From: an uncultured Prevotellaceae bacterium
GTDB lineage: Bacteria > Bacteroidota > Bacteroidia > Bacteroidales > Bacteroidaceae
Length of the DNA stretch: 64,000 bases
Assembly (NCBI GenBank): GCA_900316505.1
Contig: ONDH01000001.1
Span: 62,001 to 126,000, forward strand
Reading direction: 5' to 3'
The position numbers and the translations under genes were made by a program. Shown piece by piece: positions 13,657 to 21,662 of this stretch. Each line of letters opens with the position of its first letter. Positions within the stretch are counted from its first letter, which is position 1. The notes under the pieces are model-generated. The model worked only from the letters and a program-made list of their open reading frames with translations, did not search any database and was not told where the DNA came from.

Positions 13657-14550
13657 ATGAAAAAGATTACAATCATGAGCCTTGTAATGATGGCGATGCT
13701 CATAATAATATCCTGTAGTAAAGATGATGATGTCACGGATGGTAATCATGGAAATAATGATGGAGGAGGGGGTAGTCCCATTGTCACTGTAGTGATAAAT
13801 GAGGATGGCACTACTTCCAATAGAAGTACCTTCTCCGTCATCGATGAAAAGAATTTCTATCTTGACTATATTAAATACACCATTGAAGAGGGTCACCTTA
13901 TTGTATCAGGATATGACCAGTCTGGTTTTAAGGGAGTAGCCAACATTGTTGACCGAATCACGTATGGAGGTGATACCTATAAGGTGTTAAAAATTGGCAG
14001 GCGCGCTTTCTATGATTGTACATCTTTAACCTCCCTAAACATCTCAAACAGTATTAAAAGCATTGGAGAAATGGCTTTCCATTATTGTCCCGAGTTGACT
14101 TCAGTGACCTTTGGTAATAGCGTCACATCTATAGGAGAAAGTGCATTCTTTGGCTGCAGTGGTTTGACCTCTGTGACCATTCCCAATAGCGTCACATCTA
14201 TAGGAGAAAGTGCATTCCGTGGCTGCAGTGGTTTGACCTCTGTGACCATTCCCCCAAATATGAGCAGAATAGAAATCACCACGTTCGAAGGTTGCGATGG
14301 TTTGACCTCTGTGACCATTCCCAAAAACATCACATTCATAGGTGGGGGTGCTTTTGGGTTTTGCAGTCGCTTGACCTCCATAGTTATTGAAGCCACGATG
14401 CCTCCAACGACGCTCCCTTCCATGTGTATGTATTCTGATCTTGTAACTATCTACGTTCCCAAGAAAAGTTTGGAATTATATAAAAACACTTCGCCATGGA
14501 AGGATGAAAAATTTTTTACACTTAAACCAATAGAAGAAAAAGAGAGGTGA
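13657..14550 (+). CDS. BspA-type leucine-rich-repeat lipoprotein
   Basis: 297 residues: lipoprotein signal (MKKITIMSLVMMAMLIIISC, Cys20), a Gly/Asn/Asp linker, then about six BspA-type leucine-rich repeats with a 23-residue period (LTSVTIPNSVTSIGESAF and relatives) at about 105-265, and a closing VPKKSLELYK segment. BspA proteins sit on the cell surface and are known from Bacteroidota as adhesins binding host matrix or other bacteria. Units at 14116 and 14185 are near-identical over 69 bp, a sign of recent duplication. Closed by a strong terminator. Confidence 0.93.
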   Translation: MKKITIMSLVMMAMLIIISCSKDDDVTDGNHGNNDGGGGSPIVTVVINEDGTTSNRSTFSVIDEKNFYLDYIKYTIEEGHLIVSGYDQSGFKGVANIVDRITYGGDTYKVLKIGRRAFYDCTSLTSLNISNSIKSIGEMAFHYCPELTSVTFGNSVTSIGESAFFGCSGLTSVTIPNSVTSIGESAFRGCSGLTSVTIPPNMSRIEITTFEGCDGLTSVTIPKNITFIGGGAFGFCSRLTSIVIEATMPPTTLPSMCMYSDLVTIYVPKKSLELYKNTSPWKDEKFFTLKPIEEKER

Positions 14551-14616: not shown

Positions 14617-14719
14617 GTGCTTGGGGGCACTCTTTTCCTTTTATGCTTGTATGAAGATTCCACCTTGTTCTGTGTGACGTCTTTTGATTAATACGTGTGC
14701 CGTAAAGTCAGAATCACTT

Positions 14720-14899
14720 AGCTTGATTACAACTTTTCATTTAGCTTATATATTCCTTTTCATTTGGCTTGAATACACCTTTTTGTATTCAAGCCAAATT
14801 GAAAGTTGTATTCAAGCCAAATCGCATTTTGTATTCAAGCCAAACCGAAAGTTGTAATCAAGCCAAATTAAAAGTTGTATTCAAGCCAAATTGTTTAGT
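14720..14899. repeat. 23-bp repeat array with inverted halves
   Basis: Five direct units with core GTATTCAAGCCAAA start at 14785, 14808, 14831, 14854 and 14877 (exact 23-bp steps). Three complementary units (core GGCTTGAATAC) lie at 14720, 14743 and 14766, also 23 bp apart. The two halves meet at a centre near 14777-14784 and can form a long hairpin. Confidence 0.93.
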
Positions 14900-15315
14900 G
14901 ATTACGGGCAACGGGTGAGGGTGATAACGAAAGACGAGAGGGAGTGATTGCCCTTGAGATATTCACATATAGATGAATGTGAATGTGTTATGTTGAAATA
15001 ACACTCAAAAAAGGCAAGGATTTTCTTTTTCTTTGCCTTCTATTTTTAGTATAGACGATTACCTGTCAGATTCCAATGTTCCAATTTGACTTTTGAGGGT
15101 GGCGGCCACATATTCAGATTGGGTGCCGATGCGGAACTTGCCACTCCAGATGCAGAGACCAGAGGAGATGTAGTAGTGGGTGTGGTCACAGAGCTGGAAG
15201 TCGATGTGACAAGGGCAGGAAGGTGAAGAGTATCATCCACATTTTCATATAGTTTGCTAAATTCAACTTTTTTCTTGTCCTTTCGACATTTATTGTGGGT
15301 AAAAGTGGTAAAAAA

Positions 15316-15347
15316 TTTGGAGGGAATCAAAGAATTACCTAATTTTG
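15316..15347 (+). promoter_or_regulatory. promoter of the truncated kinase copy
   Basis: TTTG (15316-15319), 20 nt, TAATTTTG (15340-15347). Position and spacing match the promoter of the intact copy at 20215-20246. Confidence 0.8.
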
Positions 15348-15377
15348 TCGCCGTAAATCCTTTTAATTGATAAGAAT

Positions 15378-15557
15378 ATGAGAAAGAAGTTAGTTATTAT
15401 TTGTTTGAGTCTGCTGGTGGGTTGTGTGTGGGTCAGTGCACAGGAAACAAAGATGAGCAACCTGGAGATGCAGGCTGACAGGGAAAATGGGAAGGGCAAC
15501 AAGGTGAATGCCCGTGCATTTTATCTGCGTGCTTATGAGGACTATGTGAAGAAGGGA
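15378..15557 (+). repeat. direct repeat, left copy (with 20277-20456)
   Basis: 180 bp, about 97 percent identical to 20277-20456, with weaker similarity extending about 45 bp upstream through the promoter. The pair brackets the FRG/AlbA_2 island. Confidence 0.9.
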
Positions 15558-15668
15558 GAATTGGTAAAGGTTTTTGTTAACTTGGATACAGAACTTGCAG
15601 CCATAAAATCAGAACTACAAGACATGCCTCAATGTAAACAAGCAATTCTTGACAAGTATTTGAAATAG
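15378..15668 (+). pseudogene. chimeric truncated copy of the 20.3-kb kinase-like gene
   Basis: A 96-codon frame. Its first 60 codons, including the signal peptide, match the first 60 codons of the gene at 20277 with about 5 differences in 180 nt. After YVKKG it switches abruptly to an unrelated tail of 36 residues beginning ELVKVFVN. It retains an intact promoter, so a short secreted chimeric product could still be made. The FRG gene starts 35 bp downstream, so this fragment may mainly supply the promoter for the island. Neither the TPR nor the ATPase part remains. Confidence 0.8.
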
Positions 15669-15703: not shown

Positions 15704-17509
15704 ATGATACCTTCAATAGCAGACAAGGTAGTTCGAGGATATGTCAAAGAGGCATGTGCCATTCTTGACTATGATTTAGAATATGTTCGTGTTCTTTATG
15801 TTTCTCACATAGAAGCAATAGCTGGGATTCCGCAACATGCAGTTATAACAGCCGATGGATGTCTGATTATCGATGAACCGTGGGCAAATCGGGAAATTGC
15901 AAATGAGACCCCAACAAGAGTGCGCTGTGAAGTATATTGTAAAGTACGGATGCTGTACCAACAGGCTAAGAGCACAGACGTTTTTAACCAGTATGATAAT
16001 GGAACAATTGATGATGCAATGGCTTTTTGTAATGCGTTGATGACGCTGAAAGGGCTATCGCTTCCAATGCCTCCATTCCCACAAATGGTGGAACCCCTGT
16101 TGAAACTGACTCAGAAATTGTTGAAAGAAGAATGGGGGATAAACTCGGAATATTATTTGCTGCCAAAAGGACTGGCGAAAACAGACAATGTATGGAAATA
16201 TAGACTCACATTGGATGACGAGAAGAAATATGCAGATAGGTTTTACACAAAGCCACAGAAGTCAACAATAAGGGTTATTGATTCTTTGGAGAAAGGTACT
16301 GAAACAAATCCGTTTGAAAATGTCAACGAGGCATTCGACTATATTAAGAAACTTGAAGATGATGCATATGCCAATGATACGCTCTTGAAAGATATTGCAG
16401 CACAGCACTATTTCTATGATTTAAATTTCCGTCAGTTCCGTGTTTCATGGGCAAGTCCGTATGTGGCACTTTATAATGATAAGAACATTCCTTCAAATGG
16501 TTTCATAGTTAATCAGAATCAAGTGCATCCTAATGGGAAATTTCATTTTACGTTGAAACCAAATCTACGGGGTAGGAAATTCCTCTATCGAGGGCAAAGC
16601 CAAGATTATCCAAAGCCTTGTACACCGAACTTGTTCCGTGATGAAAAAAAGTCTTATTTCTTGGACGATTTGATTTGGTCACAGGAAATGGAACTCCTTT
16701 TAAAGACGCATCCATTAGTGAAACTATTGGAAGAAGGAGTCGAAATCATGCACGACCGTTTCAGTATCCTAATGAATTTGACTGGACTGGCTCAGCACTA
16801 TTATCATAAGACCCGCTTCTTAGACCTGACTTCGGATGTGGACGCGGCAAAGTTTTTTGCAACCACAAATTATTGTGGTAAAACAGATGAATATGCACCT
16901 GTGCATGAAACAGACAAGGTGGGTATGATTTATTGCTATGAACTACAAATGCCCAGCGCGTTCATTCCGCAGAAGGGGTATCACCTATCTGTCATTGGCA
17001 AGCAAGTGTTTATGCGCAGTGGCGCACAACATGGCTTCTTGCTAGAGATGGATAAGGGGATGGACTTAAAAACAATGCCTCAGGTGAAAAAATTCTATTT
17101 TCGACACCATCCAGATGTGTCTGATGAAATATTCAAGCAGTCAAATAATGGAAAAAAGTATTTTACAATGGATATTTTGGAAGAGGCATGGACAACAGAA
17201 TATAAAAAGCGATTAGAGGATGGTATCGTTTCTGCCGATACCGTGCGACTGAATGTTTCCAGAAATCTCGGAGAAACATTTGATAGTATATCCCAGAAAC
17301 TTAAAGCAAGGAATATTACAATAGATGACACCTACCATCCGGCATTTGCTCCTGATTTGATTGACAAATATTATGACTCTATCAAAGAAGGATGGTGGGA
17401 AGAATTTTGTAACGACATTTACTTCTACGGTGGCGATGGGGCTCTTTACAAAGACTGCTTGATGCGAATTCCTAAACAGAAGAGGTACAAGTGGGCTTTT
17501 GAAAAATAA
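15704..17509 (+). CDS. FRG-domain protein with N-terminal degenerate zincin-like region
   Basis: 601 residues, no signal peptide. The FRG domain spans about 290-490: FLYRGQSQDY (293-302) and LAQHYYHKTRFLDLTSDVDA (362-381), the two signature blocks. FRG domains occur in accessory and mobile regions; their biochemical role is not settled. The first 200 residues include VRCEVYCKVRMLYQQ (73-87) followed by DDAMAFCNAL (103-112), which resembles an HExRH...EADAxAFAN metallopeptidase pattern with its zinc ligands replaced; that is my inference. The AlbA_2 gene follows after 14 bp. Codon use is A/T-richer than the neighbours, hinting at transfer. Confidence 0.8.
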   Translation: MIPSIADKVVRGYVKEACAILDYDLEYVRVLYVSHIEAIAGIPQHAVITADGCLIIDEPWANREIANETPTRVRCEVYCKVRMLYQQAKSTDVFNQYDNGTIDDAMAFCNALMTLKGLSLPMPPFPQMVEPLLKLTQKLLKEEWGINSEYYLLPKGLAKTDNVWKYRLTLDDEKKYADRFYTKPQKSTIRVIDSLEKGTETNPFENVNEAFDYIKKLEDDAYANDTLLKDIAAQHYFYDLNFRQFRVSWASPYVALYNDKNIPSNGFIVNQNQVHPNGKFHFTLKPNLRGRKFLYRGQSQDYPKPCTPNLFRDEKKSYFLDDLIWSQEMELLLKTHPLVKLLEEGVEIMHDRFSILMNLTGLAQHYYHKTRFLDLTSDVDAAKFFATTNYCGKTDEYAPVHETDKVGMIYCYELQMPSAFIPQKGYHLSVIGKQVFMRSGAQHGFLLEMDKGMDLKTMPQVKKFYFRHHPDVSDEIFKQSNNGKKYFTMDILEEAWTTEYKKRLEDGIVSADTVRLNVSRNLGETFDSISQKLKARNITIDDTYHPAFAPDLIDKYYDSIKEGWWEEFCNDIYFYGGDGALYKDCLMRIPKQKRYKWAFEK

Positions 17510-17523
17510 CTTTATTCCATAAA

Positions 17524-19236
17524 ATGGTCAAGAATTACAACAATAGCTATAACTTTACAAACGATATGATAGAACAAAAATTACAACAATATCTCATCAA
17601 GCAATACCCCAAAGAGGATGAAGGGTGCGAGTGGAAAGAATTCAAGAACCTGAAGAATGACTTCAGTGGTCATGAGAAGGATGATGTCATCTCCTACGTG
17701 TCGGCGTTGGCAAACATGGATGGTGGACATCTGATAGTTGGTGTTGAAGATAAGACTTTGAAGATTGTCGGGACGGATACCTACAACTATTCGACTCAAC
17801 AGGCGATACTTCGACTGACTAATCTATGTGCCAACCTTTCGAGCGAAGGACTGGATATTGAGGAGTTTATCACGGAGGATACCCACAAGAAAGTTTGGGT
17901 GATTCATGTTCCAAAACATCTGCCGAAGTTACCAGTCTATGCCCATAACAAAGCATGGCAGCGGATAGAGGATTCTTTGGTGGAACTGACTCCGGAACGA
18001 TTGAACGCCATTTTGGAGGAAACCAGTCCAACCTACGACTGGTCTGCTGAGACAATTGCTGAGGCTACACTTGATGATTTGGAGCCAATGGCATTGCAAA
18101 AGGCCCGTGAAGAATACAAGTCTGTTCATCTGAGAGTGGCAGATGAAGTTGACACATGGGACGATATGGAATTGCTTGGGAGGGCTGGTGTTGCCGTAAA
18201 AGGTAAACTGACAAAAGCCGCCATCTTGCTACTCGGAAAACCAACATCTGTTCATTTCCTGACCCCATCCGTCGCTACTATTACATGGGTACTGATTGAT
18301 GGGAAAGATGAGAAGAGAGACTATGAGCATTTCACCATTCCATTCCTGCTAACCGTGGATGAAGCCCTTGCCAAAATCCGGAATCTTAATCAACGGATAT
18401 TGCCGGGCGGAACGCTCTTCCCAGACATCGTAAAGCAATATGACGAGTATAGTATTCGCGAGATTTTGCATAATGCCATCGCTCATCAAGACTACACGAT
18501 GCAAGAAAGAGTGACGATGGTTGAAACTCCCGACTCTGTGACATTCTCCAATGGTGGCTACTTTTTGCCGGGGTCTGTGCGTAATGCCATTGAACAGACT
18601 GGACCGCAGAAATATTACCGTAACTACGCACTTTGCCAAGGCATGGTAAACTTCAACATGATTGATACTATCGGTCGTGGAATTCGGAAAGTGTTTACAG
18701 AACAACAAAAACGTTTCTTCCCTATGCCTGACTATCAGATAGACCAAGCAAAGAAAGAAGTGACGGTAAGGATATACGGTAAACTTATCAACGAACAATA
18801 CTATCGTTTGTTAAAGGCAAATCCTGATTTGTCTCTATATGATTGCATCGCTCTTGACATGGTACAGAAACAAGAAAAGATAGATAAAGACATTGCAACT
18901 CGTTTGCGCAGATTGCATCTTGTAGAAGGACGCTATCCAAAGTTGTTTCTGTCCGCATATACAGCAAAAACAGTCGATGACAAAGAACTGAAGATGGAGT
19001 ACATTCGCAACAAGAGTTTCAATGATCTCCACTTCAAGGACATGATAGTTCAGTATTTGCGCTCGTTCGGTGGAGCGACAAGGGCAGAACTGAATACACT
19101 ATTGCAATCCAAGTTATCTGATGTACTCACGGATGAGCAGAAGATTAGAAAGATTGGCAATATGCTGTCTGCATTGAAAAAGAATGGGATTATACGACTG
19201 AGCGAGAAAAAGAAGTGGGTTTTAGTCGAAGTTTAG
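17524..19236 (+). CDS. AlbA_2 (Schlafen-type) ATP-binding regulator
   Basis: 570 residues, cytoplasmic. An AlbA_2/Schlafen domain occupies about 30-140 (CEWKEFKNL, then YVSALANMDGGHLIVGVEDK). A HATPase_c_4-like domain lies at about 310-430 (YSIREILHNAIAHQDY, NGGYFLPG, IDTIGRGIRKVF), and the C-terminus is winged-helix-like (RAELNTLLQ...NMLSALKKNGIIRL). This order is that of predicted nucleic-acid-binding regulators in Bacteroidota. The start may be 17524 or the Met at 17569. It is the second gene of the island, 14 bp after the FRG gene. Repeats of TAGTCGAA begin at its last codons. Confidence 0.85.
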   Translation: MVKNYNNSYNFTNDMIEQKLQQYLIKQYPKEDEGCEWKEFKNLKNDFSGHEKDDVISYVSALANMDGGHLIVGVEDKTLKIVGTDTYNYSTQQAILRLTNLCANLSSEGLDIEEFITEDTHKKVWVIHVPKHLPKLPVYAHNKAWQRIEDSLVELTPERLNAILEETSPTYDWSAETIAEATLDDLEPMALQKAREEYKSVHLRVADEVDTWDDMELLGRAGVAVKGKLTKAAILLLGKPTSVHFLTPSVATITWVLIDGKDEKRDYEHFTIPFLLTVDEALAKIRNLNQRILPGGTLFPDIVKQYDEYSIREILHNAIAHQDYTMQERVTMVETPDSVTFSNGGYFLPGSVRNAIEQTGPQKYYRNYALCQGMVNFNMIDTIGRGIRKVFTEQQKRFFPMPDYQIDQAKKEVTVRIYGKLINEQYYRLLKANPDLSLYDCIALDMVQKQEKIDKDIATRLRRLHLVEGRYPKLFLSAYTAKTVDDKELKMEYIRNKSFNDLHFKDMIVQYLRSFGGATRAELNTLLQSKLSDVLTDEQKIRKIGNMLSALKKNGIIRLSEKKKWVLVEV

Positions 19237-19376
19237 TCAAACTTTTAGTCGAAGTTTAGTCGAAACATAGACTCCATTGACGCTGAATGCCGTTATAGTA
19301 AGGGCTTTTGAGAGATTGGTGCTCTTATTGGATCTAGTCGAATTCACAATACAATTTAGTCGAAGTATTAGTCGAA
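19223..19376. repeat. cluster of TAGTCGAA octamers
   Basis: Exact TAGTCGAA at 19223, 19246, 19257, 19335, 19357 and 19369, plus TAGTCAAA at 19234. The first four are spaced about 11 bp apart. They start within the AlbA_2 stop region and continue toward the first small-RNA-like unit. They could be binding sites or a decayed tandem repeat. Confidence 0.85.
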
Positions 19377-19420: not shown

Positions 19421-19452
19421 TTTGACTGTACGAAGAATTTTTTGTACCTTTG
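19421..19452 (+). promoter_or_regulatory. promoter of small-RNA-like unit 1
   Basis: TTTG (19421-19424), 20 nt, TACCTTTG (19445-19452): a full consensus match not followed by any gene. Confidence 0.85.
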
Positions 19453-19458
19453 TCGCCA

Positions 19459-19528
19459 GAACAAGCACTGAAGGAAAGGCTACCTGGTGTATGAACCTAA
19501 CTGCCGCCTTCGGTGCTTATTCTTTTTG
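19459..19528 (+). ncRNA. candidate small RNA 1 (about 70 nt)
   Basis: The expected transcript starts near 19459 and consists almost entirely of one hairpin: AAGCACTGAAGG (19463-19474) pairs over 12 bp with CCTTCGGTGCTT (19507-19518), followed by ATTCTTTTT. No coding frame fits. It could be a free small RNA or the leader of a lost gene. A covariance search would be needed to place it, for example against the Bacteroidales-1 RNA motif, which I recall as a promoter-to-terminator RNA of this order. Confidence 0.6.
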
Positions 19529-19568
19529 GTAACCATAAAGAGCCTGTAACGTAAGAAAAACAACCTTA

Positions 19569-20017: not shown

Positions 20018-20214
20018 GTAAATGGAAGAAGGGGGTTAGGGTTCGTTTCGTAAGGTCGCCCCCACATATTCGGATTGGGTGCCGATGCGGAACCTGCCAC
20101 CCCTGATGCCGAGGCTGGAGGAGATGCAGTATCATGAAATGATTGTGTTGGGTTACAAAGTTGGGGAATAAAATCTAAAGCGATGAACTTTTCTCATCAT
20201 TTTTCTCTCTATTA

Positions 20215-20246
20215 TTTGGCGAAAATGAAAGAAATACCTAATTTTG
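20215..20246 (+). promoter_or_regulatory. promoter of the kinase-like gene
   Basis: TTTG (20215-20218), 20 nt, TAATTTTG (20239-20246), 30 bp before the ATG. Confidence 0.85.
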
Positions 20247-20276
20247 CCGTCGTAAAACCTTTTAATTGAGAGGAAT

Positions 20277-20456
20277 ATGAGAAAGAAGTTAGTTATTATT
20301 TGTTTGAGTATGCTGGTGGGTTGCTTGTGCGTCAGTGCACAGGAAACAAAGATGAGCAACCTGGAAATGCAGGCTGACAGGGAAAATGGGAAGGGCAACA
20401 AGGTGAATGCCCGTGCATTTTATCTGCGTGCTTATGAGGACTATGTGAAGAAGGGG
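20277..20456 (+). repeat. direct repeat, right copy (with 15378-15557)
   Basis: First 60 codons of the intact gene; see the left copy. Confidence 0.9.
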
Positions 20457-21662
20457 CAGACGAAGAAGGGAGTGGAATGTGGCTTGAAGGCTGCTGACCT
20501 GTACTATATGGGCGACAACCTCTACAAGGAGGGGTTGGACTTGCTGAACCGCATTGACAAGAGCATTGACTCGAAAGCTGAACAGAATCAGAAGGCTGCA
20601 CTGCATTACCTGACAGCAAAGGAGCGCTTCCAAATCTACACGAAGCAGAAGAAGGGGGAGGGTGCGCTGGAGCAGCTGAACAAGATGGAGAAATATGCCA
20701 GTGAGGCGAATGATGCTGAACTGAAGAATGACCATCTTTTCAATAAATCCGTGTATTTTTATTCCACAGGACAGAACGACAAGGCGAATGCCATGTTGAA
20801 GGAGATGGTGGCGAAGATGAATGAGGCGAGTGAGCAGAAGGTGGCGAAGGAAATTGAGGGACTGAAGAAGCAAATCGCTGACAATGAGGCTGAGATTGAG
20901 GAGAAGGACAGTTCGCTGACTGCCCGCCAAATCACCATTGTGGGTTTGGCAATTCTGGCAGCAATTCTGGCAGTGGTGCTGGTGCTGGGTGCCCTGGCTC
21001 TGATGCGCTCCATCTATCTGACTCGCAAACAGAAGAAGACCATCCGAAGCCTAAGCGAGAACAATGCCCAGCAGGCTAAGTTCATCAGCAATATGTCTTC
21101 GCAGCTGGAGCCTACCTTGCAGAAACTGGACAAGGATGTTCCAGAGGTGCAGGCATTGCTGGACTTCTCTGACCATATCCAGCTGTTGTCTAAACTGGAA
21201 ACGAGCACAGATGCAGTGGAGAAGGAGGATGTGCAGGTGGGTGCGCTGTGTGAGGAACTGATGGAGAAGATTCGTGGCAAGGTGAGAAGTGGTGTCAACC
21301 TGAATGTGGATGCACCAAAGATGACCGCAAAAATCAACAAGGAGTATGTGTCACACATCTTGTCGCACCTGCTGAAGAATGCCGCGCTGTACACTCCAGA
21401 GGGTGGACATGTCACGTTGGAATATAAGAAAAGAGGTGCACACAAGCACCAGTTCATTGTGCTGAACACAGGAAAGACCATTCCTGAGGAGCAGCGTGAG
21501 GAGGTGTTCAAGCCATTCAGAGAGGTGCGTGACCTCACCCTTGGCGATGGTCTTGGCTTACCCATCTGCAAGCGCATGGCCATGAACATGAATGGTGACC
21601 TCGACATAGATCCTGCCTTTGTGAAGGGTGTGAGGTTTATTTTGCACTTGCAGGACGATTGA
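20277..21662 (+). CDS. histidine-kinase-like TPR membrane protein lacking the phospho-His
   Basis: 461 residues: signal peptide (1-22), TPR-like helices (about 30-180), coiled coil (180-215), one membrane segment (219-242), then a cytoplasmic kinase-like part. The dimerisation helix reads KFISNMSSQLEPTL (268-281), so Ser275 stands where histidine kinases have the phosphorylated His. The ATP domain keeps an N box (HLLKNAA, Asn368) and a G box (DGLGLPI, 424-430). It could bind ATP and signal by conformation but should not autophosphorylate in the usual way. No response regulator is adjacent. Confidence 0.85.
   Translation: MRKKLVIICLSMLVGCLCVSAQETKMSNLEMQADRENGKGNKVNARAFYLRAYEDYVKKGQTKKGVECGLKAADLYYMGDNLYKEGLDLLNRIDKSIDSKAEQNQKAALHYLTAKERFQIYTKQKKGEGALEQLNKMEKYASEANDAELKNDHLFNKSVYFYSTGQNDKANAMLKEMVAKMNEASEQKVAKEIEGLKKQIADNEAEIEEKDSSLTARQITIVGLAILAAILAVVLVLGALALMRSIYLTRKQKKTIRSLSENNAQQAKFISNMSSQLEPTLQKLDKDVPEVQALLDFSDHIQLLSKLETSTDAVEKEDVQVGALCEELMEKIRGKVRSGVNLNVDAPKMTAKINKEYVSHILSHLLKNAALYTPEGGHVTLEYKKRGAHKHQFIVLNTGKTIPEEQREEVFKPFREVRDLTLGDGLGLPICKRMAMNMNGDLDIDPAFVKGVRFILHLQDD

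Follow-up and report, generated by a model that had tools for sequence, protein, structure and literature searches.

Proteins that combine a Schlafen RNase domain, a minimal histidine kinase and a winged helix have been described in association with BREX systems and are proposed to act as back-up RNase effectors (NAR 2026 gkag035, PMC12839542). The family examined here shares this three-domain architecture and the link to defence operons, but differs in that its range of cargos is wider than BREX and that a repeat array and a joint swap of winged helix and array are added. A term search of PMC12839542 found no mention of a repeat array or binding site, nor of such a swap, and we found no report of the array or of a specificity swap in a wider search of open-access published papers. 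Thus, the architecture and the BREX association are already known, and the array and the swap are the features for which we found no report. The vertebrate tRNA/rRNA endoribonucleases SLFN11, SLFN13 and SLFN14 are also comparable, with a C-lobe fold and an ExxxxExK motif that align with the bacterial protein, although only the C-lobe-like domain is held in common and the domains that follow differ. In SLFN14, this motif is needed for RNase activity. The protein DIP2311 from Corynebacterium diphtheriae (PDB 3LMM) has the AlbA_2/ATPase fold in common but is only 16-17% identical, and we know of no function for it.

The 64-kb stretch of DNA analysed here, referred to below as the window, carries a gene for an AlbA_2 protein of this kind behind a gene for an FRG-domain protein (Table 1). 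The original prediction held that these two genes lie 14 bp apart in a mobile-looking island and form a candidate defence or stress module in which an effector is paired with a nucleic-acid sensor. The direct repeats, the restriction-gene tail and the repeat array described below were not part of it. Two open reading frames are indeed present there on the same strand. However, the gap between them is about 56 bp, because every relative starts to match at the DNA level at 17563-17566 and the AlbA_2 start is therefore most likely the ATG at 17566, not 17524. An imperfect 20-bp copy of the 5′ word of the AlbA_2 gene is found just ahead of this start (17529-17594), perhaps as the scar of a start-codon exchange.

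Table 1. Coordinates of the features of the island within the window.
Feature	Position	Strand	Details
Direct-repeat copy 1	15315..15556	+	Duplicated start of a TPR/histidine-kinase-like gene (60 codons) with its promoter and upstream region
Bacteroidales-type promoter, TTTG-N20-TAATTTTG	15316..15347	+	In duplicated copy 1
Chimeric ORF	15378..15668	+	60 kinase codons joined to 36 codons (15558-15665) from the end of a type IIG/HsdS-like gene
FRG-domain gene	15704..17509	+	601 aa; FRG domain ~16577-16873
AlbA_2/GHKL-ATPase/winged-helix gene	17566..19236	+	556 aa; likely start 17566
C-terminal winged helix (predicted)	19024..19224	+	Residues 487-553
Array cluster 1	19221..19264	+	Four TTTAGTCGAA repeats, at 19221, 19232, 19244 and 19255; overlaps the stop codon
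Array cluster 2	19333..19376	+	Three TTTAGTCGAA-like repeats, at 19333, 19355 and 19367
Direct-repeat copy 2	20214..20455	+	Lies where the intact TPR/histidine-kinase-like gene (20277-21662) begins

The island is bounded by 242-bp direct repeats that are 94% identical to each other and correspond to a single copy in the sibling genome G027, which lacks the island and is ~93% identical to the window around the site. The GC content of the island is low (~0.40, versus 0.46-0.50 in the flanks). Each direct repeat carries one full promoter of identical pattern, the second at 20215-20246, and matches to this pattern are strongly enriched in the window (17 versus 0.8 expected). The copy in the first repeat presumably drives the island. 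No tRNA genes were found in the 64-kb window. A BspA-type leucine-rich-repeat gene (13657-14550) adjoins the island and has no counterpart in the aligned region of G027. At 14700-14907, an LRR gene is followed by a set of four 23-bp direct repeats along with large inverted repeats (TTGTATTCAAGCCAAA).

In front of the FRG gene, the first repeat runs in frame into a short restriction-type tail, forming a chimeric ORF. With a length of only 36 aa, this tail clearly matches a single protein, a type IIG restriction-methylase of 1317 aa at locus L134, at the C-terminus (60% over 35 aa, E 1e-7), and its extreme end is identical to that gene at 29 of 31 nucleotides. The gene order in L134 is type IIG, Mrr-type, AlbA_2. 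A search of 45 genomes of the genus found the tail in no other genome. Because the kinase frame and the restriction tail are fused in frame on a duplicated promoter, and because the tail matches L134, the FRG and AlbA_2 genes are the surviving 3′ end of a truncated operon of the restriction-modification (R-M) type. The sequence shows that recombination joined the duplicated promoter and kinase codons to the end of the type IIG/HsdS-like gene and left FRG and AlbA_2 intact; the mechanism may have been, for example, a single-crossover integration. The window thus illustrates that what looks like a system of two genes may be all that is left of a bigger one.

The protein encoded by the first gene matches the Pfam FRG family as predicted (PF08867; E 3e-11, 44.5 bits versus a cut-off of 25) and the PADLOC model PDC-S15. 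FRG domains have been put forward as ART-superfamily effector candidates (PMC9503650), and the protein is predicted to be an effector of this type. It is like those proteins in its FRG domain and in the effector role proposed in the literature, but differs by an additional N-terminal region of ~290 aa and by gene neighbours that vary. It contains a YRG motif that includes R296. A relative in G199 is 79% identical over its full length and is encoded ahead of a second FRG-like gene. No FRG relatives were found in viral contigs. The FRG protein may act in abortive infection by consuming NAD+, as one of many cargos that can stand in for each other.

The second protein scores above the Pfam cut-offs for SLFN_AlbA_2 (46.6 versus 25.3 bits) and HATPase_c_4 (34.5 versus 26 bits), and its AlphaFold model (mean pLDDT 81) contains a C-terminal winged helix, in keeping with the layout first proposed. 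The winged helix is formed by helices at residues 487-501, 506-514 and 523-539 together with wing strands. In this model, the third helix (19132-19182) is presumed to be the recognition helix. Profile and fold searches of the PDB gave matches to 3LMM, the top Foldseek match of the model (E 5e-21), and to SLFN5, SLFN8, SLFN11, SLFN13 and SLFN14. The ExxxxExK motif occupies residues 17-24, with E17, E22 and K24 present in 69, 70 and 70 of 70 aligned sequences, respectively; these residues align with E206, E211 and K213 of SLFN14, and D62 falls on SLFN14 D249. An RNase role is plausible because this motif is kept and because fold and profile searches match Schlafens. The most variable part of the protein in the same 70-sequence alignment is its C-terminal end. 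The window protein therefore has the AlbA_2 domain, GHKL ATPase, winged helix and ExxxxExK motif of the Schlafen RNase-kinase-winged helix family; linkage to BREX or R-M genes is seen in its relatives, and the window retains the restriction-gene tail only.

A genome scan yielded 177 AlbA_2 relatives, of which 80 were kept; most are from Bacteroidales, with outliers such as Treponema. The 60 proteins encoded immediately upstream fall into 42 clusters, including type I and II R-M, Kiwa KwaB, GmrSD, AbiH, YhcG and RhuM families, and BREX BrxC/D, Lon, TIR, ART/ARG and ABC-3C are found farther upstream. Downstream genes in relatives encode Xre, TOTE primase-helicase and nSTAND3-Mrr proteins. There are also 22 plasmid records. 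In the alphaproteobacterial relatives (plasmids of Phaeobacter and Sulfitobacter), type III Mod and Res genes flank the gene, and a 61-bp gap there contains short words that resemble repeats. AlbA_2 is thus a common last gene behind many unrelated defence operons, and the proposed link to defence is upheld by relatives behind type I, II and III R-M, BREX, Kiwa, GmrSD, AbiH and TIR genes as well as by the published candidacy of FRG domains as effectors. Among 2.9 million viral contigs, the AlbA_2 subfamily was found at one locus, and we therefore assign the gene to host defence and not to phages.

Directly behind the AlbA_2 gene lies an array of short direct repeats. The window contains 10 matches to TTTAGTCGAA versus 3.1 expected, a number that none of 100 shuffles reached. 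This array is kept in 14 relatives of the window type, and its second cluster (+95 and ~+119) is also kept in relatives. Other relatives carry different words, including ATCCGACC, CGTCGAAA and AATGACTA. Phased chains of at least three repeats occur in 65 of 79 loci, compared to 58 of 693 control gene ends (8%) and 3.6% of shuffles; chains of at least four occur in 51 of 79 loci, compared to 12 of 693 control gene ends and 0.13% of shuffles. Loci whose C-termini are less than 70% identical to one another give a similar picture (at least three repeats in 23 of 27), and ~18% of loci are without a clear phased chain. Autocorrelation of the repeats peaks at 10-12, 19-23, 29-34 and 40 bp, a helical-turn spacing as would be expected for protein binding on one face of the DNA. 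In nearly all of 46 loci checked within ~10 kb, the array is found only at or after the AlbA_2 stop codon and on the same strand. Most loci, like the window operon, have no copy upstream; the exception is the ATTAACAA subtype, with extra sites before the gene at -98, -77 and -21. Distant COG2865-like proteins from the same genomes (~24% identity) have either no arrays or only coding repeats, and the array therefore belongs to this AlbA_2 subfamily.

Several loci (L078, L080, L090, L123, L124, L137 and L139) have GATTAACAAA sites also at -110 to -21 of AlbA_2; they represent one subtype plus recombinants, and the upstream sites suggest autoregulation or looping. Very regular arrays that would make good substrates for binding tests are present in L154 (11667-11727, 7 × 10 bp, Treponema), L147 (4672-4749, 8 × 11 bp) and L142 (5429-5509, 9 × 10 bp). 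A role for the array as a sensor of phage DNA was considered and rejected: paired TTTAGTCGAA repeats occur in only two viral contigs, and a looser scan for CCGACC gave 106 stretches, approximately the level estimated for chance.

The repeat word appears to track the C-terminal winged helix rather than the protein core. For example, the L098 and L105 proteins are 97% identical over residues 1-150 and 100% over residues 151-400, but only 40% over the last 56 residues, and their arrays are unrelated. The pairs L113/L119 and L101/L096 follow the same pattern (cores 97-100%, C-termini 40-68%, arrays unrelated). Conversely, L096/L126, L121/L098 and L102/L119 each bridge two core clades (~71% over residues 151-400), with C-termini 67-81% identical and array words alike. 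Over all pairs, the partial rank correlation with the array is modest, at 0.26 for the C-terminus versus 0.12 for the N-terminus; set against the middle of the protein, the C-terminus is not favoured (0.14 versus 0.21). The winged helix adjoins the array, so that linkage alone could account for part of their covariation; against this speaks the recurrence of matching array classes across two core clades that have diverged.

Comparison of close relatives also points to recombination within the gene. Of 117 pairs that are at least 85% identical, 91 begin to match within -10 to +20 of the ATG, and the match stops near the array in 49. For L086 and L087, identity rises from ~0.85-0.93 to 1.00 at about nucleotide 590 of the gene, indicating a crossover, and L075 and L134 have the cargo and the first 150 nucleotides in common before they diverge, which places another crossover inside the gene. 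In L104, an older TTTAGTCGAA array persists behind a newer AACGACTA array. Because of these intragenic crossovers and the old arrays behind new ones, the gene seems to serve as a hinge between cargos, with the winged helix and array as the exchangeable unit. Internally deleted copies, in which the N-terminal 60-70 codons are joined to the C-terminal part, are found in L060 (9125-9595), L061 (12035-12700) and L062 (11300-11697), and two of these three keep an open frame.

The reading that we favour, and consider somewhat better than an even proposition as a whole, is that the island is the remnant of a truncated R-M operon in which AlbA_2 acts as a locus-controlled back-up RNase with an array in cis. 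The Schlafen N-terminal domain would supply the RNase activity, and the GHKL domain would dimerise or sense. The winged helix, judging from its covariation with the repeats, may bind the phased array behind its own gene, which would serve as a cis-acting anchor or operator that confines a dangerous protein to control by its own locus. Infection, or damage to the locus or to a partner system, might then release or activate the protein. Exchange of the winged helix together with the array would keep copies independent of each other, and recombination inside the gene would shuffle the defence cargos upstream. Against this reading, a location 3′ of the gene is unusual for an operator, and sites upstream as well are confined to the ATTAACAA subtype. 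The shortness of the restriction tail with its single clear match, and the loci without a clear phased chain, also count against it. A broader proposal is that, across many defence operons, bacterial RNases of the Schlafen type are kept in check in cis by phased 3′ arrays on which their winged helices sit, that winged helix and array are exchanged as an orthogonal cassette around a constant catalytic core, and that the gene is a recombination hinge for cargos. This we offer tentatively, as a possibility that we would sooner doubt than accept.

Other accounts of the island concern the gene pair itself. A dedicated FRG and AlbA_2 system, as originally predicted, would fit two intact, adjacent genes on the same strand, and the L084 island also holds both families. 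However, a survey of the relatives of both genes shows that the adjacency is not conserved. FRG relatives were found in 13 other genomes among 399 of the family, none with this AlbA_2 gene nearby, and the sole exception of any kind is L065, where an FRG relative accompanies a distant AlbA_2 protein. Likewise, an FRG gene is near AlbA_2 in only 1 of 79 relatives (L084), and there it lies downstream rather than upstream. This rarity elsewhere is the outcome that the original prediction itself named as refuting, and the restriction-gene remnant upstream also speaks against a two-gene unit. This system is thus largely refuted and we consider it very improbable. Alternatively, the island might be a decaying, functionless remnant in this genome, with the restriction gene gone and the rest being lost. 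The truncated upstream gene, and the frameshifted or internally deleted AlbA_2 copies of the related loci L057, L060 and L062, are consistent with such decay, but in the window neither ORF is broken and neither the array nor the promoter lacks any part, and we regard this outcome as unlikely.

Two further alternatives assign the array a different purpose. AlbA_2 might be mainly a transcription regulator of the defence operon, with the array as its operator, the ATPase sensing infection, and no RNase role. The job would resemble that of BrxR (WYL) and RptR, which bind DNA, as AlbA_2 is presumed to do, and which likewise turn up in defence loci of unrelated kinds; RptR is a repressor that binds direct repeats (PMC12255303). 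The pairing of a winged helix with a cognate array fits this idea, as do the upstream sites of the ATTAACAA subtype and the finding that 11 of 78 loci (the window among them), versus 19 of 684 controls, have a full promoter in the 450 bp that follow the gene. However, BrxR and RptR have other folds, no Pfam match to a WYL domain was found in the AlbA_2 protein, and those regulators have their own sites in promoters, whereas in most loci the array here is behind the last gene and not ahead of the operon. The essentially invariant RNase motif is also difficult to reconcile with pure regulation. Most loci lack a canonical promoter after the array, and a general function as operator of a downstream promoter was rejected on this count. 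We consider regulation as the main role to be a possibility of some weight, if on the whole a rather unlikely one. The gene and array could instead be a mobile cassette of integron-like geometry, with the array serving for recombination or attachment and the start codon as the point of cargo exchange. The clustering of homology boundaries at the ATG and near the array, and the persistence of older arrays behind newer ones as in L104, would be expected from such a cassette. Yet the repeats are direct rather than attC-like palindromes, no integrase was seen beside the loci inspected, and ordinary homologous recombination explains the crossovers inside the gene. We consider such a cassette improbable.

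Schlafen-like proteins are joined to a great many defence operons, and we know of no published account of their control or trigger. A self-linked, clade-specific array offers a cheaply testable handle on binding, on RNase restraint and on re-addressing through winged-helix/array swaps. The array would also explain how 42 unrelated kinds of cargo can precede one and the same gene, and uncharacterised defence cargo could be uncovered by searching the DNA ahead of it.

At 19421-19540, behind the window array, an RNA of ~75 nucleotides with strong structure (fold z -4.4) comes after a canonical promoter; an Rfam search gave no credible match for it. It was rejected as a part of the system since copies occur alone elsewhere, specifically in G037 and G009 (85% and 80% identical). 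This RNA is possibly an undescribed small RNA of Bacteroidales.
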